From contig CANIQT010000009.1 in NCBI GenBank assembly GCA_947469885.1, positions 62,001 to 126,000 on the forward strand: a stretch of DNA of 64,000 bases, in the 5' to 3' direction. The stretch's first letter is position 1, and each line of letters begins with the position of its first letter. Source of the DNA: Bacteroidota bacterium (GTDB lineage Bacteria > Bacteroidota > Bacteroidia > 2-12-FULL-35-15). The position numbers and the translations under genes were made by a program. This document shows positions 27,613 through 50,120 of the stretch, piece after piece. The notes under the pieces are model-generated. The model worked only from the letters and a program-made list of their open reading frames with translations, did no database searches and was not told the DNA's origin.

Positions 27613-28242
27613 CTATTTACAATTCTTTTTAATATAATCGTACGCTTTAAAATCTCCTAACTCTCCTGCTTTGCTCCAGTCTTTGCAGGCACCTTTTGCA
27701 TCTCCCATTTCAAATTTAGCTCTTCCTCTTTGCTCGTATGCCTGAAAATCTTTTTTATTCATTGAGATAACTTTAGTATAATCTTCAATACTTGATTTAT
27801 ATTCTTTCAATGATTCGTACGAAGTGGCACGGTTGAAATACGCATCCGAAAAACTTTTGTCCTGTTTAATCGCAATATTAAAATCATCTATCGCTCCGCG
27901 ATAATCTTCCAGCATGGCTTTGAGTGCGCCTCTGTCTTTATATGCTTTTGAGTAAGTAGAATCGAGCTCAATGGTTTTGTTGAAATTTTCCATTGCTTTT
28001 TTATTATCCTTTTGCAAAAAAGAAATTTCGCCAAGGTAATAATATACTTCCGCACATTTAGGACACTGTTCAATTGCTTTATTAAATTCCATCACCGCCA
28101 CATCATAATTTCCTTCATTGAATTTTGCAATGCCGCTTTTAAGATTTGCGGTCGAATCTTTTTGGGAAAAAGAAAATAAAGGTAGGAGGAATAAAAGGAA
28201 GAAGGAATAAAAAAGTTTTTTTGAATATCGAATAACGAACAT
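27613..28242 (-). CDS. Secreted TPR protein
   Basis: The start is chosen at the ATG 28240-28242 (MFVIRYSKKLFYSFFLLF), because the 23 residues before it are encoded by a CGAATT-type repeat and the remaining N-terminus forms a normal signal peptide ending at FSFSQ. Five TPR units follow (GIAKFNEGNYDVAVMEFNKA, AEVYYYLGEISFLQKDNKKA and others), with a C-terminal GDAKGACKDWSKAGELGD motif typical of Sel1/TPR ends. Probably a periplasmic scaffold. It lies right behind the giant secreted protein gene on the same strand, but a short repeat-filled gap separates them, and no partner is known. Confidence 0.85.
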   Translation of the reverse strand: MFVIRYSKKLFYSFFLLFLLPLFSFSQKDSTANLKSGIAKFNEGNYDVAVMEFNKAIEQCPKCAEVYYYLGEISFLQKDNKKAMENFNKTIELDSTYSKAYKDRGALKAMLEDYRGAIDDFNIAIKQDKSFSDAYFNRATSYESLKEYKSSIEDYTKVISMNKKDFQAYEQRGRAKFEMGDAKGACKDWSKAGELGDFKAYDYIKKNCK

Positions 28243-28315
28243 CGAATTTCGAATGTCGAGATGTATACGTGTTACTTCATTATTCATAATTCGATGTTTG
28301 ATATTCGACATTATT
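28213..28315. repeat. CGAATT-type repeats forming an inverted pair
   Basis: Words of the form CGAATAT / CGAATTT / CGAATGT occur repeatedly at 28221-28258, and the reverse complement of such words at 28287-28310 (shared core AACATCGAATT). The block sits between the giant gene and the TPR gene and covers the possible longer start of the latter. Confidence 0.6.
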
Positions 28316-31300
28316 TTATTTTATGAGAACCAGTCGCCTACTCACACTTCCTCGCTCTGTTGCAATTTCAATCATATATACTCCAGCATCCAAGGTGCTG
28401 GAATCAAACGTATATTTATGTTTTTGCAAACCGGAAATCATTTTTTCTTCACGCACTGTTCTCACATTTTGTCCTAATTTGTTGAACAAATTAATATCTA
28501 TAGCAGTAGTTGCAGTAGTACTGAATTCAATAGTAAATTCATCAATAGCAGGGTTTGGATAAATAAGTACATCTTCCAGCGGAATACCTGCTTCGTCAAT
28601 ACCTACGTGAGTTACCACTACTTGTATAACAGTATCCGAACTGCAACCTTGTGCATTGGTTCCTGTTACGGTGTAAGTAGTGGTTACTGTTGGCGAAGCA
28701 ATAACAGTTGCTCCTGTAGTGGTGTTCAATCCTGTTGGTGGAGCCCATGAATACGTCACAGCATTATAAGCAGTTAAGGTAACTGAGTTACCAAACAATA
28801 AACTTGCAGAGTAGGTATTAGCTGTAATGAGCGGTGCAGGGTTGATGGTTAAGTGTGCTGTGTCGGGCGTTGAGTTCGGACAAAGCGTATTGTTATCGGT
28901 TACGTAATAGGTAAATGTACCCACATTGGTAACACCCGTATTAAAGTTGTTTCCGCTTCCTAAGAAATTAATCAAGGTAATATCGCTGTACCAATGAGGA
29001 TTATTTCCTGTTGAGAATAGATTAGGAGCGCCACCTATACAAATAGTTGTATCGTGTGCAGTAGGTTGTGGTGGCGATTGATTGATGGTTAACATCACCG
29101 AATCAACACTTGTACTAGTACATCCACCAACACTATCCGTTACAAAATAAGTATATGTTCCGGCAGTGGTTTGTCCGGTTGTGTAGGTGTTGCCTGTGTT
29201 TACAATGGTTGTAAGGGTAGCATCGTTATACCAAGTAACGTTTGTTCCTGTGGCTGATAAATCAGGAATAATTGTACCTGTACAAACTGTTATGTTGTTG
29301 GCAACCGGAACAGCAGGCACAGGCAGGATAACAAGAGTAGCAGTATCCAAATCGCTACCGCAACCAGTTACGGTATCGTTTTGTAATACATAATAAGGAT
29401 ACGTTCCCGCAAGGGTTTGTCCGGTTGCAAACGAAGCACCACTGAACAAGAAAACATTGGCAGTATCGTACCATTGAATATTGTTGCCTGTTGCAATCAA
29501 GTTTGGAATGGTTGCAGATGCACATACTGTAGTATCAGTAGTTATTGGCATTCCGGGTAATGAGTTAATTATCATGTTCACACTATCTACAGGACTAACA
29601 CAACCATTCACTGTATCCGTTTGAGTGACATAATAAGGATAAATGCCCGGAACCACGTGTGCAGTATTGAATACATCTCCAGAATGAACAAGCGTCATAG
29701 AGGTGTTGTACCATTGCACATTTTGTCCGTGATAAATTAATATTGCCAATGCAGTTCGGAAACAAATGGCGGTATCATCAACAGTAGGCATTGCAGGTGT
29801 TTGATTGATGGTTAACGAAACAGTATCCGTCATCCCCGCAGGGCAACCAGCAATGTTATCGTTTACATAATACGTATAAACCCCCGCAGCGGTTTGTCCT
29901 GTCGGGAAGTTAGAGCCAATGTTTACTAAGTTGGTTAACAATGTATCGCTGTACCAATTTACGATAGTTCCTGTAGTTGCAACCAAATCAGGCATTGCAC
30001 CACCGCTACACACTAAAATATTTGCTACAGCAGGTGCAATGGTTGGTTGTGTGTTGATGGTGAGCATAGCTGTATCTACAGGACTTGCAAGGCATCCCGG
30101 TAAACTATCGGTTACATAATACGTATAAGTACCTGCTGCGGTTTGTCCGGTAGCAAAGGTGTTTCCAACATTTACTAACGTAGTTAAACTGGCATCGCTG
30201 TACCATTGAATAATTGTTCCGGTTGAAGAAACCAAATCAGGAGTAGCAATGCTGGTACAAGTAATTACATCAGCCACTGTTGGTGCATTGTTAGGCTGAA
30301 CACTTATTGTTAAGGTGGTGGTATCAGAATAACTCGAACAACCTGTAATAGCATCCACATCAATAACCGTATAAGTATATGCCCCAGATGCAGTGATTCC
30401 GGTAGCAAATGTATTTCCTGTTGAAACAAGCAATGCGTTGTTGTCGTACCATTGAATATTATTACCTGTTGATATTAAATCGGGAACTGTACTTCCAAAA
30501 CATGCAGAAGCATCAGCCGACAATGGTGTTGCAGGTAGAGCATTAATAGTAAGTGTTGTTGTGTCGGGCGCACTTTCGCATCCGTTAACAGTTGTTGTAA
30601 CGGTGTACACATATACACCCACCGCTGTTTGACCAGTAGCAAAAGTATCCAATGTAGAAACACTTGTCATGGTGTTATCATACCAGTTAATGTTTCCACC
30701 TTGTGTAATTAAATCAGGAGTTGGTGTTCCAAAACAAATACTTTGGTCGGCAGCAATTGGTGCAACAGGCACAGCACTAATAGTCAATGTATCCAACCCA
30801 TAAGGACTTTGAATTCCATTCACTGTTTGAGTTACATAATATACATAACTGCCCGGAGCGGTTTGTCCGGTAGCATAAGGATTTCCTGAATAAACATTGT
30901 TGGTAAGCAACGAATCAGCGTACCAGTTGATGTTTGTGCCCACCGCAGTTAAATCAGGAATGATGCCACCAGCACAAATTACCTGACTTGCTAATAGCGG
31001 TGCTCCTGGGTATATGGTGAGAACAACTGTATCAGGAGTACTTTCGCAACCGTTCATTGTTTGTGTAACATAATAAGTATAAACACCAACTGCTGTTTGT
31101 CCGGTTGCCAATGTATCATTGGTAGAAACAACAACCATTGCAGTATCGTACCATTGAATGTTAGTTCCCGATGTAATTAAATCGGGAGTTGGTAAGCTGT
31201 ATGCAACCATCGTATCGTTAACAGAAACAGGTGGAGTGTAGTTAATAGTAAACACAACTGTTGATGCAGGACTTGTACAGCCGTTCATCGAATCGGTTAT

Positions 31301-34300
31301 GTAATAAGTAAAGGTTCCTGCTGTTGTCTGAATCGGAGTATATGGACTTCCTGTAAATACAAGTGTAGTCAGCAACGAATCGTTATACCATTGAACATTG
31401 GTTCCTGTTGCAGTAAATGTAGGGTTCGTAGTTCCAAAACAAATAGCTGTATTTGCAGATGTGGTTGGAGCAAGAGGAATTGCATAGATGGTAAGAGTAG
31501 CTGTGTCAGCAGGACTTTCACAACCGTTTACCGTTTGAGTAAGAGTATAAGTATAAACTCCCGCATTGGTTTGTCCTGTTGCAAATGTATCATTTGTAGA
31601 AACACTTACCATAGCAGTATCGTACCATGTAATGTTTGTACCGTTTGTTGTCAAATCAGGAATAATGCTTCCGAAACAAACACTTTGATTAGTTGCAACA
31701 GGAGTTGCAGGAATAGCATTTATAGTTAATATTACTGTTGTAGTCTCACTTGTAATATTATTTTCCGTTTGATTTATATAATAAGTGTAACTACCCACAG
31801 CAGTATCTCCTGTTGCATAAGGACTACCCGAATAAACAGGAACAGTTAACAATGAATCGCTATACCACTGAACATTTAAACCCGTTGCAGTTAAATCAGG
31901 AACAGAGTTTCCATAACAAACAGTTTGGTTAGGTGATGTTGGAGCCACAGGATAAATAGTAAGAACCATGGTATCCAATGTACTTTCGCATCCATTCAAC
32001 GTTTGACTTACATAATAAGTATAAGCACCAACTGCTGTAAGTCCGGTTGCAAATGTATCATTAGTAGAAACAGAAACCATAGCGGTATCGTACCAGGTGA
32101 TGTTATCACCAACTGCAATCAAATCAGGTGTTGCAGAACCAAAGACTGAGGAAGCATCAACAACAGAAACTGGAGGCGTTAAATGAATTGTAAATACAAC
32201 AGTTGCATACGGACTGCTGCAACCATTTGCAGATTGAGTGATATAATAACTATAAACTCCTGGAGCTGATTGTACAGGTGTATATGTTGTTCCGCTTGAA
32301 ACAAGAACAGTTAATGTAGAATCGCTGTACCAATTTAAGTTGGTTCCTGTTGCACTAAATGTTGGATTCGTTTGTCCGAAACATATCGCTGCATTGCCTG
32401 ATGTGGTTGGCATTGCAGGGGTAGGATAGATAGTTAAAGAAATAGAATCAGCAGGACCTTCGCAACCAAACGTTGTTTGTGTTACATAATAGGTATAAAT
32501 TCCAATTGCTGTTTGTCCAGTGTTATAAGGATTTCCTGCAAACAATACTGTTGTTAAAGTGGTATCACCATACCATTGCAAGTTACTGCCCGTTGCAGTA
32601 AGTGGTGTTATTGATTGCCCGAAACAAGCTGTTGTATTTGTCACTACCGGAGCAGCCGGAGCAGTATTGATTGATAGGATAACAGAATCAGGAGTACTGG
32701 TACAACCTGTAACAGAATCGGTTTGTGTTACAAAATAAACATGTGTACCAATTGCTGTTTGTCCGGTATTGAAAGATGTTCCACTATGAACAAAAGTCAT
32801 GGAAGAATCATACCATTGAACATCATTTCCTGTTGCAACTAAAGAAGGAATGGAATACAATGCACAAACATATACATCAGGAGTAACAGGTGGCGGAGTA
32901 AAATGAATGGTTAAGCTCACTGTATCAGCATGGCTTTCGCATCCTGTTAAAGTATTGGTTTGAGTAACGTAGAACATGTGAACACCTCCGGCAGTTATTC
33001 CGGTAGCAAACGGACTACCTGTTCCGGCAATAGTTCCCGAAGTATCATACCACTGAATGTTTACACCAGTTGATGTTAAATCAGGAGTTGAAGTTCCAAA
33101 ACAAATTGCAGTGTCAGTTGAAATTGGTGTTGCTGGAAGTGCATTGATAGTAAGCGTTACAGAAGTGTGCGGACTTTCGCAACCGTTAGCAGTTTGAGTT
33201 ACTGAATAAGAATATACACCAACTGCTGTTTGTCCTGTTGCAAAAGGACTACCACTAAACACAACTGTGGTGGTATCGTACCATTGTATAGCGGTTCCCG
33301 TTGCAGTTAAATCAGGAATTGTCCCTTCAAAACAAGCATTCTGATTAGACGAAACAGGAGCAGCCGGAATAGCATTAATAGTAAGTGTTACAGAAGTGGA
33401 AGGACTTTCAATACCATTAATTGTTTGTGTTACATAATAGGTATAAACTCCTACAGCCGTTTGTAAAGTTGAGAATGGATTTCCGGCAAAAACCAAATTA
33501 GTCAGCAACGAATCGCTGTACCATTGAATATTTACACCAATTGCAGACAAGTCAGGAATGGTTGTTCCAAAACAAGCAGATTGATTAGATGCAGGAGGAT
33601 TGCTTGGATAAATTGTTACTGTAACTGTATCCAACGTGCTCTCACATCCATTCATTGTTTGCGAAACATAATAAGTATAAACACCTATCGCAGTTTGCCC
33701 CGTTGCAAATGTATCATTGGTTGAAACACTAACCATAGCAGTATCGTACCATGTAATATTGCTTCCAACTGCAATCAAGTCTGGTGTTGGGGTTCCGAAT
33801 GGAACAGAAATATCATTTACAGAAACAGGAGGTGTGAAGTAAATTGTAAACACAACAACAGAAGCAGGACTATTACAACCGTTCACTGTTTGAGTAACAT
33901 AATATGTATAAACTCCTGGAGCCGTTGGCAAAGGAGTATAAGTACTTCCGCTATTAACATGTGTAACAAGTGTTGAATCACTGTACCAGTTGATGTTTGC
34001 TCCTGTACAAGTTAATGTTGGATTTGTTTGACCGAAACAAACGGATGTATTTACTGGAGCGGTTGGTGCAGCTGGAATTGGATGAATAGTTAATGTTAAT
34101 GTATCAGCCGGACCTTCGCAACCTCCGGCACTCTGTGTTACATAATAGGTATAGGTTCCAGCTGCAGATTGTCCCGTGTTATAAGAACTACCACTTGATA
34201 CTAAAGTCATGGAAGTGTTATACCATTGAATACCTGTTCCTGTTGCTGTCAGATTTGGTATTGACTGTCCGAAACAAGCATTTGCATCGTTTGATGTTGG

Positions 34301-37300
34301 GGCGGTTGGAATTGCATTAATCGTAAGAACAACCGAATCAGGAATACTTTGACATCCTGTTAACGTATTAGTTTGTGTCACAAAATAGGTATAAACACCA
34401 ACTGCTGTTTGTCCTGTTGAGTAAGAGCTTCCTGTTGCAACTTGCGTCATTGCTGAGTTATACCATTGTATGTTTGTTCCAATTGCAGTAAGTGGCGGCA
34501 CAGTTAATCCTGCACAAACAATAACATTTGAATTTACAGGTGGAGGTGTAAAGTTTATTGTTAAAGTAACAGTATCGGAAAGACTTTGACAACCAGTTAA
34601 CGAATTCGTTTGTGTAACAAACAAATTATAAACCCCTGCAGCAGTTATTCCTGTTGCATAAGGACTACCTGTTCCAACTTGTATTCCGAGAGTATTGTAC
34701 CAACGGATAGTTGTTCCAGTAGCAGTTAAAGCAGGGGTTGTACTTCCAAAACAAGAGGAAGTATCAGAAGCAATGGGTGTAGATGGCAGTGCATCAATAG
34801 TTAGTGACACATTGGTGTGCGGACTTTCACAACCATTCACCGTTTGAGTAACAGAGTAATTATAAACTCCAACTGCTGTATTTCCGGTTGCAAATGGAGT
34901 TCCGTTATGAACCACAAATGTAGTATCATACCATTGAATAGTTGTTCCTGTTGATGTTAAATTAGGAATAGTACCGCCAACACAAGCAGTTTGATTGGTT
35001 GAAACAGGTGCAGTTGGAATAGCATTAATGGTTAAAGTAACTATTGTTGCAGGACTTGGAATGCTGTTTATAGTTTGTGTAACATAATACGTATAAACAC
35101 CAACAGCAGTTTGTCCTGTTGGGAAGGCACTTCCAGTATGAACCAGATTGGTCAATGTGGAATTGCTATACCAATTGATATTTGTACCAGTTGCAATTAA
35201 ATCAGGAACAGTAGTCCCAAAACAAATGGTTTGGTTGGTTGAAGTTGGTGCAAGCGGATGAATAGTAAGTGTAACGGTATCAGGAGTACTTGCACAACCA
35301 TTTAATGTTTGGGTTACATAATAAGTGTAAGCACCTATTGCTGTTTGCCCTGTTGCAAATGTATTATTAGTCGAAACAATAACCATAGCAGTATTATACC
35401 AAGCGATGCTTGAACCAACAGCAATCAAATCTGGTGTTGCGGTACCAAATGGAATGGATATATTACTTACAGAAACAGGAGGTGTATAATAAATGGTGAA
35501 TACAACTATAGATGCCAAACTACTACAACCATTAGCTGTTTGTGTTACATAGAAAGTGTATGTACCTGCCGCAGTTTGTGTAGGGGTAAAAGTACTTCCT
35601 GTATGGACAAGATTAGTTAAACCAATATTACTATACCAGTTAATATTCGTTCCTGTTGCTGTTAATGTTGGATTCGACTGACCAATACAAATGGAAGCAT
35701 TACCCGAAGTTGTAGGTGCTGATGGAATTGGATATATGTTTAAAGTTGCTGTATCCGCTGAACTTGAAGCACATCCTGCGGTACTGTCTTTTACATAAAA
35801 AGTATAAGAACCAACAGTAGTTAGTCCGGTATTATAAGTACCACCTGTATGAACAAGATTAGTTAATGCAGTATCATTATACCATTGAATAATTGTTCCT
35901 GTAGATGTCATTGGTGGAATTGCCTGACCGAAACAAGCATTCACATCATTAGCACTTGGCTGAACAGGTGTTGAATTTATTACCAATGTAACGGTATCAG
36001 AAAAACTATGACAACCGCTTGAAGTATCCGTTTGATTTACATAATACGTATAAGTACCTATTGCTGTTTGTCCAGTGGAGAATGGATTGCCTGTATAAAC
36101 TAGATTTGTTAATCCCGGATTACTGAACCATTTGACAGTGTCCGAACCTGTAGATGCTGCAACAAAATCGGATACTGAGAAACCAAAACACGCGTTTATG
36201 TTTGCAGTAATTGGGCGAACAGGAATAGGACCAATAATTAAATGAACAGTATCAGCATGCGATGCACAACCTAATACCGATTGGGTTACATAAAAAGTAT
36301 AATTTCCAACAGCCGTCAAGCCTGTGTTGTATGGACTTCCACTATGAACTAAATTAGTTAATGTTGCATTACTGTACCATTGGATGGTGGCACCAGTCGC
36401 AGTTAATGCAGGTGTTGCCTGTCCAAAACAAATGGTGATATCAGAGGCAACAGGTGTGGATGGAATAGGATTGATGGTAAGAATTACCATCTTAGCTGAA
36501 CTTTCACAGCCATTCAACGTTTGTGTTACATAAAATGTATCTACACCCACAGCCGTTAACCCCGTGTTATAAGGATTTCCAGAGTACATCAATGTCATAG
36601 CCGAGTTATACCATTTTAAATTTGAACCGGTAGCGGTAAGTATTGTAGATGTACTACCAAAACAACCTGTCTGGTTATTTGCTGTTGGTTGAGGTGTAAA
36701 ATGAATGGTAAGAGTGGCAGTATCTCTCGGACTAATACATCCTAATAACGAATCAGTTTGAGTTACATAATAATTGTAAATACCGGGAGAAGTAACACCT
36801 GTTACCAACGGATTTCCGTTTTGAATAAACACCAATGCAGAAGTGTACCATTTGATGGTATCACTTCCTGTTCCAACAGCTGATAAAGTTGGAGTGGCTG
36901 TTCCAAAACAAGAATTCACATCGGTGGCTACTGGTTTTGATGGCAAAGAATGGATAGTTAATGTTACTGTGTCAGCCGGGCTTTTCGGGCAACCTATAGT
37001 ACTGTCAGATACATAGAATGTATATGTTCCTGCTACTGTTATTCCAGTGTTGTATGGATTGCCAGTAAATACATGATTCGTTAATCCGGGATTGGTGTAC
37101 CATAATTGAAAAGTACCAGTCGAAGTTAAAGCTGGGATAGAAGAACCAAAACAGACAGACTGATTTGTAGCCGAAGGTTGAGTAGGCGCACTGTTAATTT
37201 GCAAAGTTACTGTATCTGCCCGGCTTTCACAACCATTTACCGAATCAGTAGAGGTAACATAATAGGTGTAAATTCCAGCTGCTGTTTGTCCTGTATTATA

Positions 37301-40300: not shown

Positions 40301-43300
40301 AATAGGAAACTCATTACTGGAATATTCCCCAATCCATGTGCCTCCGTTACTTATCCAATTCAGCACATCAGCCTGATTCAAATTATTGTTTCGAATATTC
40401 ATCAATACATCATAATTGGCGAGAGTTGCGGCATTATAAGTGGAGACCGTTGTTGCTATTAAGTCGCTTTGCGTGTTCAATACCGAAGTAATTCCTGAAT
40501 GATTATATACCGCAACCCGCACCTGACCACTACTGGTTCCTCCCGAAATAGAAAGACTAAAATTAAGAGGACTCAATCCTGAATTACAAACATTGAGCGG
40601 AATAATCACAGAATCAACACAACCTAGAGTAACCTCCAGCGAATCCGGATTCCAACAAACTGTTGGTCTTGCAAATCCTTTTCCAGAAAGACAGACTTTC
40701 ATAGTCGTGTCATTATTCAATATGGTAAGTGTATCTGTAAAAGTACCCACTGCAACCGGAGCAAATGTTACCTTTAACTTAGCCGAATCGCCAGGAACAA
40801 TATTGTAAACAGTTTGGTTAACTGTAAAAATGCTTGTTTGGTTGGTAATATTTGTAACATGTAATGTGTCGCATCCAGTGTTTTTTATGTAAAGTGAATC
40901 TATATGGGTGGTAAATTCCATAATCGAATCAAGATACAAACAATTCCTTGATAGTCCTATATGACTTACCCCAACAACATTCATCGTCACATTTACATTC
41001 ACATTTGGACTAAGTGGGTCGTTTGATAAAATGGTAATTGGATAATTATACACCCCATTATTAAGGTTCAATGTATTAAAATTAAGTTGCACTGTTTGAG
41101 AAGCTGATGGAACCAAAGTTCCCGAAACAGGTTGAATGCTAAGTCCGGGAGAACCAACCCTGATTCTGTAATCTTCCTCCTCACCATAATAACTACTTAA
41201 AGCACCGCAAGGAGCAGGGGCACTTCCATTTGTCCAGTCAATTACTCTCATCCGAGTAAAACCAATGCTAGCTGAAAGTGGAACAGTTATAGTAAAATTT
41301 GTTAATGTATTATTTGTATTAACATTATTCACCATTCTTTCCGAAGCATCGTAAACTCCATTTCTATTCCAATCAATCCATACCGAAATGTAGGCAATGT
41401 TGCCAGAACCTTGAGCTTGCACGGTAAGTGTAAACGTACCTCCGGGTACTTCAGAAATTAAACTGGAAGGATAATAATTTACTCCTAGTCCTGCATTGCT
41501 TGTAAATCCTGCACCTAAAGCAGTTGTTTGGTTAATCGTTCCTCCTGATGTGGTTACACTATTAATATATGAGTACGAATTAGAAGGGTACATTGTGGGG
41601 ATACAATATCCTGTTGGGGGGGCTCCAGTTCCTCCGCTTGCAACTGCATTCCAGTTAAGTACACCTAAACCTGAATTATTAATTGTCAACGAGGTAAGCA
41701 AAGAATCTCCGCAAGGCACTGTTACATTTATCGTTGACGGATTTAAATTAATGACAGGCATTTCATAAGACTTACTGCTTAAACAAACTTTTTTTGTCAC
41801 ATCATTATTAAGAATAGTCAACGTATCTATAAAGGTACCAACCGTTGTAGGAGCAAATGTTACTCTTAGTTTTGCAGAATCTCCAGGAACAATATTAAAA
41901 ACACTTTGATTGACAGTGTAAACACCTAATATATTTGTAATATTTGTAACATGCAAAGTATCGCACCCAGTATTTTTAATATACAATGAATCTTTTCGTG
42001 AAGTGTTTTGCATAATTGAATCATGGCTCATGCAATTTCTTGTTAATGCTATAGTACCCACCCCGGAAACATGAAGGGTGAAAGGAACTAAATACGGATT
42101 GTTTAATGGGTCATTCGAATTGAATACTATATTTCCTGAATAATTTCCTGCATTTAAACCTGCTGAATAAAAATTAACATTTATCGAAGATGAACCTCCT
42201 GGAGCAATTATTCCCGAACTGGATGATAACAACACTGTCGAAGCAATTTTAACTGAATAATCTTCAAATTGTCCATATTGAACATTAGTACAAGGTTGTG
42301 GTGGGGCATTAAACTGGTATTCGGAACCCACCCGCATTCTCACTGCCTTGTTTCTCACAGCAGTTAAAGGAATAGTAACAGTACCTGTGTGAAACCTGTT
42401 TGGTAAAACATTAAGATTGGCATTCATCACTCTTTCCGTCACCTGGAAAACTCCATCATTATTGAAATCAATCCACACACTTACATATTCATTATATGAA
42501 GTACCAGTTTGGACTGACAATGAATACGTTTGTCCAGGATTTACAAAAGTGCTTTGTGTAGCAGTATAGTTCTGATAACCCTGAGTGGCATTTCCTGTTG
42601 TATTATTAATACTACCAAAAGTTACATTATAGATACCCATGCTGCAACAAGTAGATGTGGTGATAGGAGTACATGATGCAGGAATAAGAACATTGGAAGA
42701 AAAAGATGGATTCTGAACAATAGCAGTGTAGTTTAACGAACTTCCTCCGGCATTAACAATAAGCAATGGCAAAGAAGTTGAATCATTACAGCCAAGTGTT
42801 AAATTGAACGAAGAAGGGACTGTTGAAATGGTAGGATTAGCGAAAGCTTTCCCTATTAAACAAATGGTAGTATCAAGCACATTAGTATGAACAGTAAGCG
42901 AACCATTGTAAACACCAAGAACAGTTGGAGAAAACTGAACAACAATATTTTTTGTACCACCGGGGACAATTGTTGTTGGAGAAGAAAATACTGTAAACAC
43001 CGAAGGAGAAATATTCAAACTGGTAATATCAAGTGTATCGCATCCCGTATTATGTATGGCAATCGAATCTCTACTGAAAGTATTTGCCATAATAGAATCA
43101 AGATTAAGACAAGGTTGCGAAGTATTGAATAATGAAAACTGCATGTGAGCAATACCTACCACATTCATGGTAGCATTAATCGCAATTGGTGAATTAAGCG
43201 GGTCGTTAGATGTAAAAGTAATAGGATAGCTATAAACGCCTGCAATAAGTCCTGTACTGTTAAAGTGAAGTTGAATAGTTTGTGACCCCGATGGATTAAC

Positions 43301-46300
43301 AGTTCCTGAAGAAGGAACAATAGTAAGACCCGGATAACCCACTCTAACAAGGTAATCTTCTTCTTCACCATACCAACCACTTAAAGCACCACAAGGGGCA
43401 GGAGGTGATCCGTTCGTCCAGTCTATTATCCTCATTCGGGTTACACCAACAACTGCAGATACCGGAACAGTTATTGTAAAATTTGTTACCGCATTTGCCG
43501 TACTAATATTATTTACCATTAATTCGGAAGCATCAAACACTCCGTTTCTGTTCCAATCTACCCAAACCGAAAAACGCGCATTGTTACCTGAACCTGCTGC
43601 CTGTACGGTTAGCGTAAATGAAGCACCTTGTACTTGCGAAACCATCGCAGAAGGATAGTAATTTACCCCCGTTCCTGCATTACCTGTGAACCCTGCATCT
43701 GCCGCTGTAGTAATATTTAATGTACCTCCCGTGGTTGTTACACTGTTGATGTATGAGTATGAATTAGTCGGATACATAGTAGGAATACAATATCCAGTTG
43801 GAGGATTTCCATTACCTCCTCCTACTGCACTCCAGTTAAGAACCCCGCCTCCGGTATTGTTAATAATTAAAGGGCTTGACAAAGAATCGTTACAGGCTAC
43901 AGTTACGTTGACTGAAGAAGGAGTGAAAGAAATAGATGGTCCCGGAAAAGCTTTTCCTATTAAACAAATGGCCGTGTCAAGAACATTGGAATAAATGGAA
44001 AGTGAACCATTGTAAGTTCCAGCTGTGGTTGGTGCAAATTGTACTATTACATGTCCGCTCATTCCCGGGTATATAATAGTTGGAGAAGATATTATAGAAT
44101 ACTGTGCGGGGGTAATATGCAAGCTATCAATATAAAGAGTGTCGCATCCTGTGTTAGTAATGGCTATTGAATCCCTGCTTGTGGTATTAGCCATTATAGA
44201 ATCTAAATTAAGGCAGGGTTGATTTGTATTATAGAGTGAAATGCTCATATGAGCTGTACCAACTATATTCATTGTCACCGGCACTGTATCAGGTGTATTC
44301 GGGTCGTTTGAATTTATAATTAAAGAATAGTTATATGTTCCAGCATTCATACCCCTGCTATCAAATTTTACTGTTGCGTTTTGAGTACCAGACGGGCTTA
44401 CCATTCCCGCAGGTGGGATAATGCTTATTCCCTGTGCCCCTATAGTAATATCATATTCCTCACATTCTCCATAAGAAAAATTTGAGCAATACTGTGTTGC
44501 ATTTAAAGTAGAATTATATGCGCACCTGACACGTAATCGCGTTCTGCCTAAGGCTGTATTTGTAGGAATAGTAATATTGCCAGTAAACATACTTTGACCT
44601 GCTGATGGTGATGCATATACAAATTCTCCTGCATCTCCGTAATCCCCATTCCTGTTATAATCTATCCATACACCAAACCCCTCGTTATAACCTCCACCTT
44701 GCTGCATACTTATTGCGTATGTTCCGCCTCTTTGAACTAAAGTGGTGAAGGCTGGATAAGTGGTGGCTGGATAATAAATATAATTGCCAGTGTTATTATT
44801 ACAACCTGAGTTCAGATTTTGTATCGTATTAAACGAAAAATTAGTCATCCAGTCTTCTGAACTGCAATCGTTATTCGTATAGTTTGTTGAACAATAACCA
44901 GTCGGTGAAGTGGTGTTATAACTTGTAACCACACCATTCCATGAAAGATTTCCTGCACCAGAATTGCTGATATCAATACTGCTTAAGGAAGTATCTCCGC
45001 AAGCTAAGGTAACATTAAATGAAGTCGGGTTTAAACTTATGAATGGTGCAGCAACTGATATTCCTGTAAGACACATGGTGGTATCATGCACATTATTAAA
45101 AATAGTAAGTGTTCCTGTATTGTTACCTATAACCGTAGGCGCAAATGTTACAGTGAATTGTGCCGAACTCCAGGGTGCAATTGTATCATTAACAGGACTT
45201 GCAGTAAATACAGAATTGGAACTTGTAATATTTGTGATAATAAGATTGGAACAACCAATGTTTGAAATAGTAAATGTTTGCTGTGATTGTCCTGTTATTA
45301 CTGTTGTATCCGAATTTACACAATTGGAAGATAAGGACACTTCTCCTTGGTTAGAACAGCAAAAATGAACCTGTACAGGTATTAAACGGTCGCCAGTTCC
45401 GGTTCCATCCCCCAATTCTCCGTCCCAGTTTTGCCCCCAACCCCAAACACTTCCATCACTTTTTAAGGCAAGTGAATGATAATAACCTGCTGCAATGGCT
45501 GTAATCCCTGTTAAGTTAAGCACCTGGACCGGTACAGTTCTGTAGGTATAGGTGCCGTCACCCAGCTGACCATCACCATTGTCACCACAAGCCCATACAG
45601 TTCCATTGCTTTTTAATATTAATGTATGATAACGACCTCCCGCAACACGTGTTGCACCTGCCATACCCGTCATTTGAACAGGCGAAGTTCTGTTGGTAGT
45701 AGTGCCATCACCCAACTCTCCATCTCCATTATATCCCCAACCCCAAACCGTCCCATTATTTTTTACACCCAGCGAATTGTATCTGCCTGCTGTTATAGCA
45801 GTCATTCCCGAAAGAGCAGATACTAAAATCGGTGTACTGCTGTTAGTAGTAGTTCCGTTACCTAACTGACCATTTCCATTATATCCCCAATCATAAATAG
45901 TTCCGTTACTTTTTAATGCAATGGAATGATAATAACCTGCAGCTACTTTAGTCATTGTTGTTAAACCAGTAACCTGAACAGGCAATAAACTCATAGTAGT
46001 TGTTCCATTCCCTAATTGACCATAATAATTATAACCCCACGCCCATACAGTACCGTTACTTTTCACCGCAAGACTATGATAAGCCCCTGCTGCAATTGAT
46101 ATTACTCCTGTCAAACCCTGAACCTGTACAGGGTAAGTTCTTTCAGTTGTGGTATTGTCTCCCAACTGCCCGTAATAGTTATAACCCCATGCCCATACTG
46201 TTCCATCACTTTTTAAGGCTAATGTAAAGTCCGCTCCTCCGGCTACTGCTATTACACCGCTTATACCGTTAATATGTATAGGTGTATTTATCTGGTCATA

Positions 46301-46483
46301 CAACGTAGTACTGTCGCCCAGTTGCCCGTCCCAATCGGCACCAGTTGCATGTACAGTACCATTGTTGCAAGCTATTAAACTATGATAACCACCGGCAGCA
46401 ATAAATTGTGCATTAGCCCTTTCGGTAATGAAAGAAAAAACAAGTACTACTAATAAGGTATGTAAAACAAATTTTATTTTCAT
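28316..46483 (-). CDS. Giant T9SS-secreted repeat protein (about 6055 residues)
   Basis: The start is ATG at 46481-46483; a GTG two codons earlier is also open. Reading from the N-terminus: signal peptide (to about residue 28); a seven-bladed RCC1-type propeller (about 30-376), each blade ending like WGYNYYGQLGD; then seven cassettes of about 400 residues, each made of an ASH-like segment (for example CLNLDSIMANTTSRDSIAI), a BACON-like half, an inserted domain, and the closing NSNDP half. The inserts are four GEVED domains, a GATase/ThuA-like domain, a MAM-like domain and a LamG domain. Next come 36 tandem Ig-like domains of about 80 residues (CHU_C-associated type) and a PKD-like unit. The end is a T9SS tail (IYPNPAIDEFTIEF). 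The gene is unbroken over 18.2 kb. The product is likely a very long surface adhesin, by family analogy. Confidence 0.93.
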   Translation of the reverse strand: MKIKFVLHTLLVVLVFSFITERANAQFIAAGGYHSLIACNNGTVHATGADWDGQLGDSTTLYDQINTPIHINGISGVIAVAGGADFTLALKSDGTVWAWGYNYYGQLGDNTTTERTYPVQVQGLTGVISIAAGAYHSLAVKSNGTVWAWGYNYYGQLGNGTTTMSLLPVQVTGLTTMTKVAAGYYHSIALKSNGTIYDWGYNGNGQLGNGTTTNSSTPILVSALSGMTAITAGRYNSLGVKNNGTVWGWGYNGDGELGDGTTTNRTSPVQMTGMAGATRVAGGRYHTLILKSNGTVWACGDNGDGQLGDGTYTYRTVPVQVLNLTGITAIAAGYYHSLALKSDGSVWGWGQNWDGELGDGTGTGDRLIPVQVHFCCSNQGEVSLSSNCVNSDTTVITGQSQQTFTISNIGCSNLIITNITSSNSVFTASPVNDTIAPWSSAQFTVTFAPTVIGNNTGTLTIFNNVHDTTMCLTGISVAAPFISLNPTSFNVTLACGDTSLSSIDISNSGAGNLSWNGVVTSYNTTSPTGYCSTNYTNNDCSSEDWMTNFSFNTIQNLNSGCNNNTGNYIYYPATTYPAFTTLVQRGGTYAISMQQGGGYNEGFGVWIDYNRNGDYGDAGEFVYASPSAGQSMFTGNITIPTNTALGRTRLRVRCAYNSTLNATQYCSNFSYGECEEYDITIGAQGISIIPPAGMVSPSGTQNATVKFDSRGMNAGTYNYSLIINSNDPNTPDTVPVTMNIVGTAHMSISLYNTNQPCLNLDSIMANTTSRDSIAITNTGCDTLYIDSLHITPAQYSIISSPTIIYPGMSGHVIVQFAPTTAGTYNGSLSIYSNVLDTAICLIGKAFPGPSISFTPSSVNVTVACNDSLSSPLIINNTGGGVLNWSAVGGGNGNPPTGYCIPTMYPTNSYSYINSVTTTGGTLNITTAADAGFTGNAGTGVNYYPSAMVSQVQGASFTLTVQAAGSGNNARFSVWVDWNRNGVFDASELMVNNISTANAVTNFTITVPVSAVVGVTRMRIIDWTNGSPPAPCGALSGWYGEEEDYLVRVGYPGLTIVPSSGTVNPSGSQTIQLHFNSTGLIAGVYSYPITFTSNDPLNSPIAINATMNVVGIAHMQFSLFNTSQPCLNLDSIMANTFSRDSIAIHNTGCDTLDITSLNISPSVFTVFSSPTTIVPGGTKNIVVQFSPTVLGVYNGSLTVHTNVLDTTICLIGKAFANPTISTVPSSFNLTLGCNDSTSLPLLIVNAGGSSLNYTAIVQNPSFSSNVLIPASCTPITTSTCCSMGIYNVTFGSINNTTGNATQGYQNYTATQSTFVNPGQTYSLSVQTGTSYNEYVSVWIDFNNDGVFQVTERVMNANLNVLPNRFHTGTVTIPLTAVRNKAVRMRVGSEYQFNAPPQPCTNVQYGQFEDYSVKIASTVLLSSSSGIIAPGGSSSINVNFYSAGLNAGNYSGNIVFNSNDPLNNPYLVPFTLHVSGVGTIALTRNCMSHDSIMQNTSRKDSLYIKNTGCDTLHVTNITNILGVYTVNQSVFNIVPGDSAKLRVTFAPTTVGTFIDTLTILNNDVTKKVCLSSKSYEMPVINLNPSTINVTVPCGDSLLTSLTINNSGLGVLNWNAVASGGTGAPPTGYCIPTMYPSNSYSYINSVTTSGGTINQTTALGAGFTSNAGLGVNYYPSSLISEVPGGTFTLTVQAQGSGNIAYISVWIDWNRNGVYDASERMVNNVNTNNTLTNFTITVPLSASIGFTRMRVIDWTNGSAPAPCGALSSYYGEEEDYRIRVGSPGLSIQPVSGTLVPSASQTVQLNFNTLNLNNGVYNYPITILSNDPLSPNVNVNVTMNVVGVSHIGLSRNCLYLDSIMEFTTHIDSLYIKNTGCDTLHVTNITNQTSIFTVNQTVYNIVPGDSAKLKVTFAPVAVGTFTDTLTILNNDTTMKVCLSGKGFARPTVCWNPDSLEVTLGCVDSVIIPLNVCNSGLSPLNFSLSISGGTSSGQVRVAVYNHSGITSVLNTQSDLIATTVSTYNAATLANYDVLMNIRNNNLNQADVLNWISNGGTWIGEYSSNEFPISPWGAITGTSPNNASSGSQSVNVLVPNHYLATHINWASMPVGFDPCDYMRNLTGITDPQATKIISVNHASYGNNPLLVEKNYGAGKIIILNWDYSDNPNYNPVVADMIQEVVRYGGSSATWLSADTLAGTVVASGNDSVHFTFNSTGLNVGTYNTTVNITTNDPLNPTVSIPTILHVIGIGKIELSRNCLYLDSIMEYTTHSDSLYVRNVGCDTLHVTNVTSQTSIFTVNQTSFDIMPGDSVKLIATFAPTSPGTFVDTLTILNSNVTKKVCLSGKAYAKPEILTNPESINVTIGCCDTLAYPLSIYNVGANNLIYSINTNLNFFEGFETPLAGRWVTSGATGGNWGETADPHSGSYSLAESPNGFYGNNWNQYIELVQPLTITSAATSTLSFWSKSQMECCCDGFQVQISVNNGAYTNLNSLSCNQSSWSFHTFSLTPYVTNGSQIKIRFFFYADYSVTSQGVNIDDITITGIQQIPDYLSIAPTNGTVPAGDSSIVNLQFISCGNTVGVYNTNLVINSNDPLHPIDTVPITLNIVGTPIIALSNNCLNLDSIMTYTTSVDSLIIRNTGCDTLVITNITHQLGVYSVNQTTYTILPGDSASLITTFAPLIAGTYNDTLTFLNNNVTQTVCLHGIAYPKPVQCHTPNSLDVHFTICQDSIERQINVCNTNGGSNLNWNLTNTNGESALFDGNGDYINRNTVNLPIGSVMTAEAWIYPTSYSDASYNGIVCWGGRYCSGTSMLLSIQNNGRPSMATWCNDFVPSTGPTAVLNHWNHIACVLNGTSVTLYMNGVPISGTLGFAPNVQSTNLSIGATDYPGRYFNGRIDEVRIYNYAKTQAQILNSMNIELVGNETGLRGYWNFNNGTAQDITSFGNNGTVNGNTLFSTPNAHDYNSTTTFNPQAGTIVAGGNTNVTAMFYKVGQSFGVHNYNIYLNSNDPLNAVDTIAVTMTIDSIPPTPPVANNQSECFGNPIPALTATANTGDTIKWYNSTNVLQHIGSPYNTGQTAAGIYTYYVTSTDSVNGCESRADTVTLQINSAPTQPSATNQSVCFGSSIPALTSTGTFQLWYTNPGLTNHVFTGNPYNTGITVAGTYTFYVSDSTIGCPKSPADTVTLTIHSLPSKPVATDVNSCFGTATPTLSAVGTGSDTIKWYTSALVFIQNGNPLVTGVTSPGIYNYYVTQTDSLLGCISPRDTATLTIHFTPQPTANNQTGCFGSTSTILTATGSNLKWYNSAMTLMYSGNPYNTGLTAVGVDTFYVTQTLNGCESSAKMVILTINPIPSTPVASDITICFGQATPALTATGATIQWYSNATLTNLVHSGSPYNTGLTAVGNYTFYVTQSVLGCASHADTVHLIIGPIPVRPITANINACFGFSVSDFVAASTGSDTVKWFSNPGLTNLVYTGNPFSTGQTAIGTYTYYVNQTDTSSGCHSFSDTVTLVINSTPVQPSANDVNACFGQAIPPMTSTGTIIQWYNDTALTNLVHTGGTYNTGLTTVGSYTFYVKDSTAGCASSSADTATLNIYPIPSAPTTSGNASICIGQSNPTLTATGTNINWYSNIGLTNLVHTGSTFTPTQTAAGTYTFYVTQTANGCSSLASIVVFTIYYTPPVSVSNISIPFGTATPDLIAVGSSIAWYNTAMVIVSTNNTFATGQTAIGAYTYYVTQTLNGCASTPDTVTLTIHPLAPTSTNQTICFGTTVPDLIATGTNINWYSNSTLTNLVHTGSAFPTGQTAVGVYTYYVTQTINSIPSPATIVTLTINAIPTAPVSTNQTACVGGTIPNLTSTGTTIQWYDTTFVVHNGTPFATGNTAVGVYNYSVTQTVNGCESPHTNVSLTIDALPSTPIASDTSSCFGSTTPALTATGTTIRWYNTLGIQVGTGSPYATGITAAGVYNLFVTQTNSLTGCQSLSDTVTLTINFTPPPVNSNVIVCAGLTVPPLTAIGTNIQWYNSAMTQVATGSSYSTGQTAVGVYTYFVTQTNTLTGCQSIPDSVVLTINAIPTAPTSNDANACFGQSIPNLTATGTGIQWYNTSMTLVSSGSSYNTGQSAAGTYTYYVTQSAGGCEGPADTLTLTIHPIPAAPTAPVNTSVCFGQTNPTLTCTGANINWYSDSTLVTHVNSGSTYTPLPTAPGVYTYYVTQTVNGCNSPASVVVFTIYFTPPVSVNDISVPFGTPTPDLIAVGSNITWYDTAMVSVSTNDTFATGQTAIGVYTYYVSQTMNGCESTLDTVTVTIYPSNPPASNQSACFGTTIPDLSAIGVNIQWYSDSLLTNLVFAGNPFSTLQTAVGVYTYYVTQTINGIESPSTSVTLTINAIPAAPVSSNQNACFEGTIPDLTATGTAIQWYDTTTVVFSGSPFATGQTAVGVYSYSVTQTANGCESPHTSVTLTINALPATPISTDTAICFGTSTPDLTSTGVNIQWYDTSGTIAGTGSPFATGITAGGVHMFYVTQTNTLTGCESHADTVSLTIHFTPPPVTPDVYVCALYSIPSLVATGNDVQWYDSSMTFVHSGTSFNTGQTAIGTHVYFVTQTDSVTGCTSTPDSVILSINTAPAAPVVTNTTACFGQSITPLTATGSNLQWYGDTTLTTVLFAGNPYNTGQTAIGIYTYYVTQTTFGCEGPADSISLTIYPTPAMPTTSGNAAICFGQTNPTFSATGTNLNWYSDSTLTVLVSSGTTYTPVQSAPGVYSYYITQSANGCSSPYATVVFTIHLTPPVSVVDASSVFGSATPDLIAVGDNITWYDTAMVSVSTNDTFATGLTAVGAYTYYVSQTLNGCESTLDTMVLTIYPVAPTSPNQTVCYGNSVPDLTATGLNVQWYSDSLLTVPVYSGSPYATGDTAVGSYTYYINQTENNITSETTTVILTINAIPATPVATNQSVCFGSIIPDLTTNGTNITWYDTAMVSVSTNDTFATGQTNAGVYTYTLTQTVNGCESPADTATLTIYAIPLAPTTSANTAICFGTTNPTFTATGTNVQWYNDSLLTTLVFTGSPYTPIQTTAGTFTYYITDSMNGCTSPASTVVFTINYTPPVSVNDTMVAYSLPTPDLITSGTNIQWYDTAMVVVSTNDTLATGQTAVGVYTYYVTQTMNGCESTPDTVVLTIYPGAPLLASQVICAGGIIPDLTAVGTNINWYADSLLTNNVYSGNPYATGQTAPGSYVYYVTQTVNGIQSPYGLDTLTISAVPVAPIAADQSICFGTPTPDLITQGGNINWYDNTMTSVSTLDTFATGQTAVGVYVYTVTTTVNGCESAPDTTTLTINALPATPLSADASACFGSTVPDLISTGNNIQWYDNNALLVSTGNTFATGITASGAYTYTVIDVDAITGCSSYSDTTTLTISVQPNNAPTVADVITCTSIATPDLVSSTGTIIQWYSDASLTTLVNVGNTFATGQTAAGTYTYYVTDSLPGCLASPVDTAMLTINTQPTIAPAVANILVCSGGAMPDLVATTGTIVNWYSDTLLTNLVNIGSNFPTGQTAAGVYTYYVNDNIAGCPAGMTDTVSLTINQTPAMPTVDDTAICFRTALAILIYHGQNVQWYNTSMTLVHSGDVFNTAHVVPGIYPYYVTQTDTVNGCVSPVDSVNMIINSLPGMPITTDTTVCASATIPNLIATGNNIQWYDTANVFLFSGASFATGQTLAGTYPYYVLQNDTVTGCGSDLDTATLVILPVPAVPVANNITVCTGTIIPDLSATGTNVTWYNDATLTTIVNTGNTYTTGQTTAGTYTYFVTDSVGGCTSTSVDSVMLTINQSPPQPTAHDTTICIGGAPNLFSTGNNPHWYSDITLINFLGSGNNFNTGVTNVGTFTYYVTDNNTLCPNSTPDTAHLTINPAPLITANTYSASLLFGNSVTLTAYNAVTYSWAPPTGLNTTTGATVIASPTVTTTYTVTGTNAQGCSSDTVIQVVVTHVGIDEAGIPLEDVLIYPNPAIDEFTIEFSTTATTAIDINLFNKLGQNVRTVREEKMISGLQKHKYTFDSSTLDAGVYMIEIATERGSVSRRLVLIK
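28319..28605 (-). other. T9SS sorting domain of the giant protein
   Basis: The last 95 residues (VGIDEAGIPLEDVLIYPNPAIDEFTI in parts, then LDAGVYMIEIATE) form the Por_Secre_tail type A sorting domain. It directs transport by the T9SS and removal or anchoring at the surface. Confidence 0.9.
28842..37441 (-). repeat. Array of 36 tandem Ig-like domains
   Basis: The segment encodes 36 units of about 80 residues (about 239 bp each), each with the pattern P..P.A.....CFG...P.LTATG..I.WY followed by Y.TGQTA.G.YTYYVTQT..GC.S..DTV.LTI. Most have one Cys near the start and one near the end, as expected for a disulfide-closed Ig domain. Unit boundaries were read by eye. Confidence 0.9.
30301..35731 (-). 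repeat. Higher-order repeat ABCDEFG within the Ig array
   Basis: Domains 8-30 of the array repeat as a larger unit. A, for example SGNASICIGQSNPTLTATG with an end VVFTI; B starts TPPVSV; C starts xAPxxxNQ; D starts IPxAPVxxNQ; E starts LPxTPI; F starts TPPPV; G starts xPxAPxxxxxACFGQ. Copy 1 occupies 35731-34083, copy 2 occupies 34082-32431, copy 3 (ABCD only) 32430-31485 and copy 4 (ABCDE) 31484-30301. Copies 1 and 2 are each about 1.65 kb. The boundaries are read from motif positions. Confidence 0.8.
37620..44905 (-). repeat. Seven scaffold cassettes with different inserted domains
   Basis: The inserted domains lie at about 44905-44445 (GEVED 1), 43800-43340 (GEVED 2), 42690-42265 (GEVED 3), 41615-41150 (GEVED 4), 40540-39950 (GATase/ThuA-like), 39325-38900 (MAM-like) and 38250-37620 (LamG). 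All sit between the same two halves: an N-terminal half ending like LTINNSGLGVLNWNAV and a C-terminal half starting with a form of ISIIPPAGMVSPSG. GEVED 2 and GEVED 4 are nearly the same sequence, so they are a recent duplication. Confidence 0.8.
45361..46400 (-). other. Seven-bladed RCC1-type propeller of the giant protein
   Basis: Seven RCC1-like repeats are seen (motifs WDGQLGD, YYGQLGD, YYGQLGN, GNGQLGN, GDGELGD, GDGQLGD, WDGELGD), the number of blades in eukaryotic RCC1. The blade signature G.V.AWG...YGQLG is present in each. Confidence 0.9.
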
Positions 46484-46489
46484 CAACAC

Positions 46490-47185
46490 GGTTTGTTTCG
46501 GGGATATGATTTTTATACGGTGCTAAATTATAAATTTGTTTTATATTAAAAAAATATATTGCCAAAAAAAAAGAAATGAATGGAAATAGCTTCAATTATT
46601 TTTTTTCCAATAAAATTCCAAAACATAAACACTACACTTCCATTTTCTTTTTTTTGATTTATTTAGTACTCCTAACCCTAAAAATAAATTCAGTTTTCTA
46701 ACAAAAATACATCTCCAAATCCAGCTTAAAATCAAATTGAACCAAAACTAAAGTTAATTTTGTCAAATTTTATGTTTAAAAGCCAAAATCCAATTTACAA
46801 ACCCTAAAAATGAATTTTTGGATACAAAAAAACAAAATACATACCCTAATAATAACACTTTAAGAAAGGGTGTTTTGTTTCGGAAGAGGGGTATTTACAA
46901 TTGTTAAAGGGGTATTCATAATCTTAGGAGGTGTATAGCTAATCTGTACAATGGATAAGTATAATCCAAAGGGTAATAATCATACTATAAAGAACAGTGT
47001 TAACAATCGGAAAAGGAGTATTTTGTTTCTAAACACAAAAAAACTACTCTTTTTTGTCTCGCTTCGCAAAATACAAGAACCCTCATTTAATGTCAAAATA
47101 TTTTTGAAAGAAAATAATATTAATTACTTTAGCCGAATAATTATTTAATATTTCTGTTTAAGAAACCAACCAAAATTCTGTTAAC
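46490..47185. other. AT-rich region upstream of two divergent genes
   Basis: No gene is convincing; a 65-codon frame at 46951-47148 has no family match. The block contains short partial repeats (CCCTAAAAATAAATT near 46676 and CCCTAAAAATGAATT near 46802) and spaced GGGGTATT words. The divergent promoters for the giant gene and the 901-residue gene must lie here; one candidate for the plus strand is TTTG 47103-47106 with TACTTTAG 47125-47132. Confidence 0.5.
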
Positions 47186-50038: not shown

Positions 50039-50111
<73 letters not shown>

Positions 50112-50120
50112 CTCAAAGAG

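Follow-up and report, generated by a model that had tools for sequence, protein, structure and literature searches.

The window analysed here, a stretch of 64,000 nucleotides from contig CANIQT010000009.1 of a Bacteroidota bacterium (assembly GCA_947469885.1), contains on its minus strand a gene for a fibre protein of 6055 residues (predicted mass 638 kDa) that is probably exported by the type IX secretion system (T9SS), anchored at the cell surface and active as a fibrillar adhesin through split-domain display. A putative signal peptide and an RCC1 propeller open the protein, which ends with a long stalk of immunoglobulin-like (Ig) domains of the Ig_7 family and a T9SS sorting tail, and residues 378-3013, between propeller and stalk, form seven modules built to one plan, in each of which a guest domain interrupts an Ig-like host. 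Our strongest results, drawn from sequence comparison, are that related hosts differ in the guests they carry and that some of these sockets are empty. The best reading is of a putative T9SS fibrillar adhesin with serial split-domain sockets, a variation on a known adhesin principle. A preliminary description of the same DNA had proposed a very long surface protein that leaves the cell through T9SS, carries an array of Ig domains and is likely to serve as an adhesin or filament stalk; the architecture supports this well, and the adhesive role itself is likely by inference from that architecture.

A guest in one loop of a split Ig host

Each module opens with an ASH domain of ~105 residues, followed by a ~40-residue first part of a second ASH/PapD-like Ig domain that ends near a ..G..LNW motif, then by the guest, and finally by a 58-residue completion carrying an invariant NDP. 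In the window the ASH domain is unbroken in 7/7 modules and the second Ig-like domain is interrupted in 7/7, always at the same loop, by guests of 158-212 residues (four GEVED and one each of ThuA-like, MAM-like and LamG type). The preliminary description spoke of cassette modules; these are not domains set end to end but guests inserted in a recurring Ig domain, always at a single loop, an arrangement not described there, and the domain list given there lacked both the ThuA-like guest and the 14 ASH/HYDIN/PapD-like Ig domains which form the backbone of the cassette region. GEVED (3 + 1) and LamG (Laminin_G_3), which were listed, do score above the curated cut-offs of Pfam/NCBIfam. The MAM-like assignment is weak, with an InhA-like_MAM match under the cut-off (Table 1); a homologue of this guest in genome G005 reaches 31.9 bits to the same family.

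Joining the host halves in silico, together with structural models, lends support to the idea that the two would come together again as one Ig domain around the guest. The HYDIN-Ig family recognises one joined domain at 34.6 bits, against a cut-off of 25.5, with a match that spans residues 3-91 of 99, and a second scores 26.5 bits. Several points weigh against this picture and need to be kept in mind: the third joined domain reaches 18.5 bits, below the cut-off; the AlphaFold2 models of modules 4 and 7 rest on 15-17 sequences, with predicted template modelling scores of 0.53-0.58; the modelled GEVED guest has blocks of predicted local distance difference test score of 38-84; the fold-search support was read from the first and last aligned residues; and the ThuA-like and MAM-like assignments lie under the Pfam cut-offs. 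Fold matches of the module 7 model come from its LamG guest, which resembles pentraxins and glycan-binding modules, and they carry little information on the host. Foldseek matches to this model, mostly multi-domain and with poor root-mean-square deviations, were not used as host evidence.

Related hosts with different guests

From 36 frames we collected 149 complete modules, counting those with both host halves, of which 139 are filled and 10 are empty, with 2-5 residues in the socket. The first module set leaves out five ASH domains with an N-half and no C-half (three of them in G050, two at contig ends) as well as two C-halves whose first part is incomplete, and the module set omits some contigs with a scaffold match (for example G160, G224 and some second contigs). 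Clustering with phmmer (E <= 1e-4, single linkage) places the 139 guests in 14 clusters. The larger ones are ThuA-like (35, a product of linkage growth that may contain several families), GEVED (25), LamG (22), a 121-residue class (11) and a 196-residue class (10), and these are followed by Reelin-B (9), YVTN/lactonase-type propellers (8), a 217-residue class (5), MAM-like (4) and five smaller clusters. Two small clusters also appear Rossmann-like by eye, and there are therefore fewer distinct folds than clusters.

This list of guests bears on a different view of the fibre, in which it would be a multi-enzyme or substrate-capturing platform whose guests bind food particles of polysaccharide or protein or act on them, much as in surface digestion complexes. 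The likeness of the LamG guest to pentraxins and glycan-binding modules would suit such a platform, as would the ThuA-like cluster being the commonest, a propeller guest of G057 that scores as Lactonase (49.8 bits, cut-off 21.7), and G147, where an M4-type peptidase-like N-terminus (by eye) stands ahead of split-socket modules in a 2256-residue frame (L055). However, among three guests of the window and ten of relatives that were scanned singly, no glycosidase or polysaccharide lyase family rises over its cut-off, and GEVED is known from fibrillar adhesins (PMC10952558). We consider a platform unlikely, if worth keeping in view, and continue with the fibre as a putative adhesin.

The relationship between hosts and guests was followed on a host tree of 76/79 modules of the first set, with three hosts of <=140 residues omitted and support given solely as the Shimodaira-Hasegawa approximate likelihood ratio test (SH-aLRT). 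Seven first-position modules (five of the window's genus, with G042 and G129) cluster at SH-aLRT 94, and their guests are GEVED, the 217-residue class, ThuA-like, the 196-residue class or the 121-residue class; the first-position modules of G050, G058 and G101 fall elsewhere on the tree. The last-position clade of the window's genus (SH-aLRT 100) holds LamG in four species and an empty socket in G005 (its module 6), whose host continues without interruption and groups with the window's LamG-bearing Module 7 as its ortholog. In G057, modules 3, 4 and 5 carry three different guests behind ASH halves that are 77% (3-4), 73% (4-5) and 66% (3-5) identical. The same G057 frame also has an empty-socket ASH module that lies within the Ig_7 array, not before it (residues 4395-4589; L052 7254-7673 and downstream).

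Over the tree as a whole, guest labels change 37 times compared with 43-54 times in 200 shuffles, and guests are therefore inherited yet often replaced; neither full independence of guest and host nor strict co-inheritance fits these labels. For reciprocal-best host pairs from congeneric species the guest cluster differs in 31/67, which divides by genus into 17/48 (the window's genus), 11/13 and 3/6, and five of the 31 involve an empty socket. If there were no cassettes, host and guest would always have moved together and the apparent swaps would reflect poor host alignment and loose clustering. The non-random spread of guests on the tree and the retention of the guest in 31/48 pairs of the window's genus can be read in this way, and the hosts of the 31 differing pairs are just 39-67% identical (39-60% in many of them), a point which weighs against guest exchange, as does the fact that 3/31 differences contrast two clusters that are both Rossmann-like by eye. 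Constant co-movement is nevertheless difficult to square with the three guests of the closely similar G057 modules, with four LamG guests and one empty socket in a single clade of full support, or with 10 empty sockets overall, and we regard it as improbable. Replacement of guests on conserved hosts is the reading that we retain.

Soundness of the gene and spread of the scaffold

The frame runs from ATG 46483 to a stop at 28316, through 6055 codons without an internal stop, and an alternative GTG start lies two codons upstream. The preliminary description gave this length correctly without naming the strand, and other elements of it stand too: the seven RCC1 blades, seen as seven Pfam stretches over the curated cut-off and in regularly spaced motifs (beginning at residues 53, 105, 155, 205, 255, 305 and 355); the T9SS tail, for which TIGR04183 and Por_Secre_tail both exceed their curated cut-offs (Table 1); and the 36 Ig domains, since an array-derived profile recognises 36 copies of Ig_7, with a divergent 37th ahead of the tail. 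The same description worried about a collapsed repeat. Because the coding sequence holds no exact repeat of >=30 nucleotides and its Ig copies are at most 81% identical at the nucleotide level, such collapse is unlikely. The genome, in 50 contigs and 91% complete, is known from its assembly alone, and repeats might on that account have been misjoined during metagenome assembly; given the same lack of exact repeats, and a like architecture in G004 (6455-residue frame) and G005 (5547-residue frame), which are separately named metagenome-assembled genomes (MAGs), we find an artefact barely credible.

Relatives were searched for in genome collections comprising 148 relatives and a class-wide sample of 395, using a scaffold profile (A1) made from the seven ASH + N-half segments of the window. 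Matches at E <= 1e-3 occur in 112/148 relatives and are mostly weak. Above 100 bits the profile picks out 13/148 genomes, every frame having at least 1353 residues: five belong to the window's genus, counting that of the window itself, and eight come from elsewhere in the class. Class-wide, the scaffold is present at E <= 1e-25 in 26/395, and the mosaic is thus not confined to the window. A separate profile scan, based on an 8-row alignment, returned 14 loci, all from MAGs and all from Bacteroidetes, Flavobacteriales or Bacteroidales save one Calditrichaeota, with habitats mostly guessed from isolate names. All of the named comparison records are MAGs, which counts against our interpretation. 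The Calditrichaeota record (L073) has five split-socket modules with guests of 233-264 residues, beyond Bacteroidota.

Cysteine coupling along the stalk

The assignment of the stalk to Ig_7 (PF19081, a CHU_C-associated Ig-like domain) is firm, one half of the array scoring 398.8 bits and the other 326.0 against a cut-off of 27.3. The array appears to have grown by blocks, with a mean amino acid identity of 0.544 at lag 7 vs 0.473-0.487 at lags 5, 6, 8 and 9; a pairing at lag 4 links copies 22-25 with 26-29. Two cysteines are usual in each copy, C1 within CFG and C2 within NGCES. Across the 278 Ig_7 domains of 13 fibre proteins, both are present in 235, C1 is lost in 22, C2 is lost in 21 and no domain has lost both. 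A C1-less domain is directly followed by a C2-less domain in 20 cases and the opposite order never occurs, whereas 5000 order shuffles yield 2.2 such pairs on average and never more than 8. The coupling of C1 in domain n with C2 in domain n+1 has a phi of 0.95 and that of C1 with C2 within a domain -0.08, in a table of 275/278 domains that omits two of G058 and the last, contig-cut domain of G034. The two losses in this table that lack their counterpart in the neighbour are both ambiguous X residues, in G167a. Four such interfaces lie in the window (Table 1).

Since the losses are coupled between neighbours, the simplest reading is that adjacent Ig_7 domains are joined by a predicted disulfide, C1(n)-C2(n+1), and that the window's fibre would have four unstapled hinges. 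Pairing of C1 with C2 inside a domain was dropped, as no domain had lost both, and a bond between the two cysteines left over at a hinge gave way to the simpler loss of a single bond. An interdomain bond would leave the last domain of the array free to lose C1, and the terminal Ig domain lacks it in 9/10 fibre proteins having a C-terminus (by eye). Four observations weigh on the other side: the terminal Ig domain of G004 retains C1; hinges were copied with the block duplications, so that the 20 coupled losses represent far fewer independent events; under a looser profile G332b has one neighbour pair with C1 present and C2 absent, which breaks the rule; and in the fibre set C2 loss is not commoner in run-initial domains (1/28 vs 21/278, p 0.71).

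Because the fibre hinges were copied with blocks, other Ig_7 proteins were examined. PF19081 matches at E <= 1e-12 in 98/149 sampled genomes of the class, and a set of 37 Ig_7 loci with 278 domains was assembled (13 of the 50 loci L100-L149 being omitted as doubles). Here C1 is lost in 11/70 run-final domains vs 1/199 followed by another Ig_7 (Fisher 1.9e-6), and C2 in 4/73 run-initial domains vs 0/197 others (p 0.005); L138 and L148 belong to one genus and look homologous, which lowers the number of independent events. The fibre set, with the looser profile, gives C1 loss in 5/25 domains at run ends vs 14/272 (p 0.014). No Protein Data Bank chain matches a profile of seven window Ig_7 copies at E <= 1, and among the matches listed by a literature search, with subscription titles mostly outside its scope, none reports an interdomain disulfide for Ig_7.

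The divergent PorE-like partner

Divergent from the fibre gene lies a partner gene whose TPR and PD40 propeller parts resemble PorE. It aligns with the PorE model NF052230 over profile positions 20-411 of 648 (163.1 bits, cut-off 600) and has no match to the OmpA family, ending instead in ~400 Ala/Lys/Asp-rich residues that resemble a coiled coil. PorE-like matches at E <= 1e-20 are found in 143/148 genomes, and the eleven best matches to the partner (382-1105 bits) all come from fibre-bearing genomes, the next being G136 at 361. Co-occurrence is thus 11/13 vs 0/135, with a Fisher value of 6e-15 that ignores shared descent. Class-wide, the partner is found at 1e-95 in 14/395 genomes, of which 11 belong to the 26 scaffold bearers and three (G136, G213, G404) do not; the frames of these three, 690-703 residues long, end OmpA-like, by eye. 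The coiled-coil form occurs in 12/13 fibre-bearing genomes having a partner, and the thirteenth, G058, is contig-cut with a stop within the match. C-termini were inspected for matches at E <= 1e-95 plus G005 and G012, a scope which lower-scoring PorE-like proteins (up to 1557 residues) fall outside, and among these close matches the coiled-coil form is seen only in fibre-bearing genomes.

The two genes stand head to head within 700 nucleotides, frame to frame, in the window, G004, G005, G050, G058, G093, G101, G129 and G219, and within 6 kb of one another in G057 and G167. Three genomes whose scaffold proteins were read whole and have no Ig_7 (G333, G250, G398) are also without this partner. 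The linkage has its exceptions, and these tell against a strict association: 15/26 scaffold-bearing genomes have no partner at 1e-95, the partner is on a different contig in G012 and G042, and none was found in G034, whose fibre frame runs off its contig. PorE has parts thought to bind other proteins and an OmpA_C domain that binds peptidoglycan (PMC7192894). Because the partner keeps the former and lacks the latter, and given its linkage, we propose that it may be a dedicated export or seating factor for the fibre as cargo.

Other features of the window

Coordinates are collected in Table 1. The region between the fibre and partner genes contains one minus-strand match to a Bacteroidota-type promoter pattern, which had no control and was not used. 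Homologues of the 232-residue TPR gene also lie downstream of the fibre gene in the congeneric G004 and G005 (L040, L042). Further afield are a head GIN domain (DUF2807) protein near the fibre gene (23110-23856, 152 bits), a tRNA-Met gene just past the partner gene (50039-50112), and 15 copies of a 21-nucleotide repeat, 89% alike (24862-25175), in a region where either strand has long open frames that would encode heptads such as EAIQTGT or KQSKLVQ.

Table 1. Features of the fibre gene and its neighbours (positions in the window)
Feature	Position	Strand	Basis
Putative Sec signal peptide, residues 1-26	46406..46483	-	by eye; hydrophobic N-terminus ending ANAQ
RCC1 propeller, 7 blades, residues 27-377	45353..46405	-	PF00415, 7 stretches; PF25390 293.3 bits; motif spacing
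Module 1, ASH + split Ig host; guest GEVED 44432-44923	44258..45352	-	Pfam
Module 2, ASH + split Ig host; guest GEVED 43331-43816	43157..44257	-	Pfam
Module 3, ASH + split Ig host; guest GEVED 42239-42712	42065..43156	-	Pfam
Module 4, ASH + split Ig host; guest GEVED 41147-41635	40973..42064	-	Pfam; AlphaFold2 model m6c8307a84c6a
Module 5, ASH + split Ig host; guest ThuA-like 39941-40543	39767..40972	-	PF06283 27.0 bits, below cut-off 33.4
Module 6, ASH + split Ig host; guest MAM-like 38864-39337	38690..39766	-	PF20773 25.9 bits, cut-off 26.9
Module 7, ASH + split Ig host; guest LamG/pentraxin-like 37619-38254	37445..38689	-	PF13385 95.4 bits; AlphaFold2 model m148d15053667
36 Ig_7 domains, higher-order block duplication (lag 7, then lag 4)	28844..37444	-	PF19081, array profile
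Predicted unstapled interface, Ig copies 9 and 10 (C1 of 9, C2 of 10 missing)	35033..35497	-	
Predicted unstapled interface, Ig copies 16 and 17	33383..33847	-	
Predicted unstapled interface, Ig copies 23 and 24	31727..32191	-	
Predicted unstapled interface, Ig copies 27 and 28	30785..31249	-	
37th divergent Ig, C1 missing, C2 retained; array end	28610..28843	-	
T9SS type A C-terminal sorting domain	28328..28564	-	TIGR04183 38.1 bits (cut-off 23); PF18962 46.3-50.1 bits (cut-off 27)
TPR protein, 232 residues, 4 nucleotides downstream of fibre gene	27613..28311	-	
Divergent intergenic region, fibre gene/partner gene, 702 nucleotides	46484..47185	.	
Partner, 901 residues: TPR + PD40 propeller (PorE-like N-terminal part) + Ala/Lys/Asp-rich coiled coil	47186..49891	+	coiled coil by eye

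Proposed mechanism and comparison with known systems

The genome encodes SprA (2535.6 bits) and two C25 peptidases that are candidates for PorU. Given these and the type A tail, we propose, by analogy with type A cargo, that the fibre would leave the cytoplasm through Sec and cross the T9SS translocon by way of its tail, so that the C-terminus would be held at the surface and the RCC1 propeller would point outward, as type A cargo in general suggests. The 4.07-Mb genome has at least 150 matches to T9SS tails (150 of 356 candidates being scored), one of them in a 3324-residue frame at C8:138759. The 36 Ig_7 domains would then form a stalk of ~150 nm, assuming ~4 nm for each, which the predicted disulfides may turn into a stiff ladder interrupted by the four hinges. 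Beyond the stalk, each of the seven modules may hold one guest off the fibre axis, both ends of the guest leaving the host at one loop. The guests themselves would be putative ligand binders (LamG/pentraxin-like, MAM-like, GEVED) or ThuA-like domains, apparently swapped from one species to another on hosts that are retained.

The closest parallel in working principle is with the repeats-in-toxin (RTX) adhesins of the type I secretion system (T1SS), such as A. hydrophila AhLap, V. cholerae FrhA and M. primoryensis MpIBP, which likewise have very long chains of Ig-like extender domains. In these proteins ligand-binding domains bud from discontinuous, 'split' Ig-like domains, which project them off the axis (PMC12077191, PMC10865825), and a comparable geometry would place seven guests along the fibre. 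Against the three ligand-binding domains of AhLap (PMC12077191) stand seven tandem sockets at one loop here, and unlike in RTX adhesins a single ASH/PapD-like host family accepts 14 guest clusters. The fibre carries a T9SS tail instead, and we do not count it as an RTX adhesin, as no RTX nonapeptide repeats and no RTX-repeat family were found among its Pfam matches (E <= 0.01). In the literature, searched with the same limit on subscription titles, 'split domain' occurs among the matches listed for Bacteroidota in RTX papers only, and no protein combining RCC1, T9SS and GEVED came up, the wider matches being judged by title and the opening of the abstract.

CshA-type fibrillar adhesins (CshA_NR2 + GEVED), of which CshA itself has an anchor of the Gram-positive wall type, have in common with the fibre the use of GEVED (PF20009) in a shuffled adhesin (PMC10952558), which in the fibre sits inside a split Ig host in a protein with a T9SS tail. 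The NR2 family is absent from the Pfam output for the fibre, no dedicated NR2 model having been run.

A further possibility is a gliding adhesin of the SprB kind (Flavobacterium), carried by SprF and dragged along a GldK track. SprB is likewise a giant T9SS surface fibre, ~200 nm long (PMC12635249), and the size of our protein, its PorE-like partner and the presence of T9SS would all be in keeping with such a role. Yet the tail is of type A rather than type B, the type B model CHU_C reaching 14.3 bits against a cut-off of 27, and of 12 PorP/SprF family genes over the cut-off in the genome none is on the fibre contig (C9). With neither a CHU_C tail nor a nearby SprF/PorP gene, the fibre was not classed with SprB, and gliding is very improbable as its function.

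Taken together, a putative adhesin with split-domain sockets may be one instance of a general, exchangeable display system of Bacteroidota, a joint reading which we offer tentatively and at slightly less than even confidence. It would hold that one split Ig socket family takes at least 10 guest sequence classes (117-328 residues, propellers ~317) in tandem arrays of up to ten; that guests are replaced through recombination while hosts stay; that the stalk is an Ig_7 n/n+1 disulfide ladder whose hinges are dropped single bonds copied by block duplication; and that a PorE-like paralogue, which exchanged its grip on peptidoglycan for a coiled coil, serves this cargo alone.

Split-domain display, found in the literature for T1SS RTX adhesins, would with these data extend to T9SS fibres of environmental Bacteroidota. 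The many guest types per socket mean that ligand-binding domains of obscure function may be recognised by their position, and empty and filled sockets at one position in related species make the socket well suited to experiments on domain insertion. For a stalk domain that is widespread in the class, the Ig_7 cysteine rule offers a structural prediction that is simple and falsifiable. More broadly, exchangeable sockets suggest a way in which microbes may alter what they stick to.

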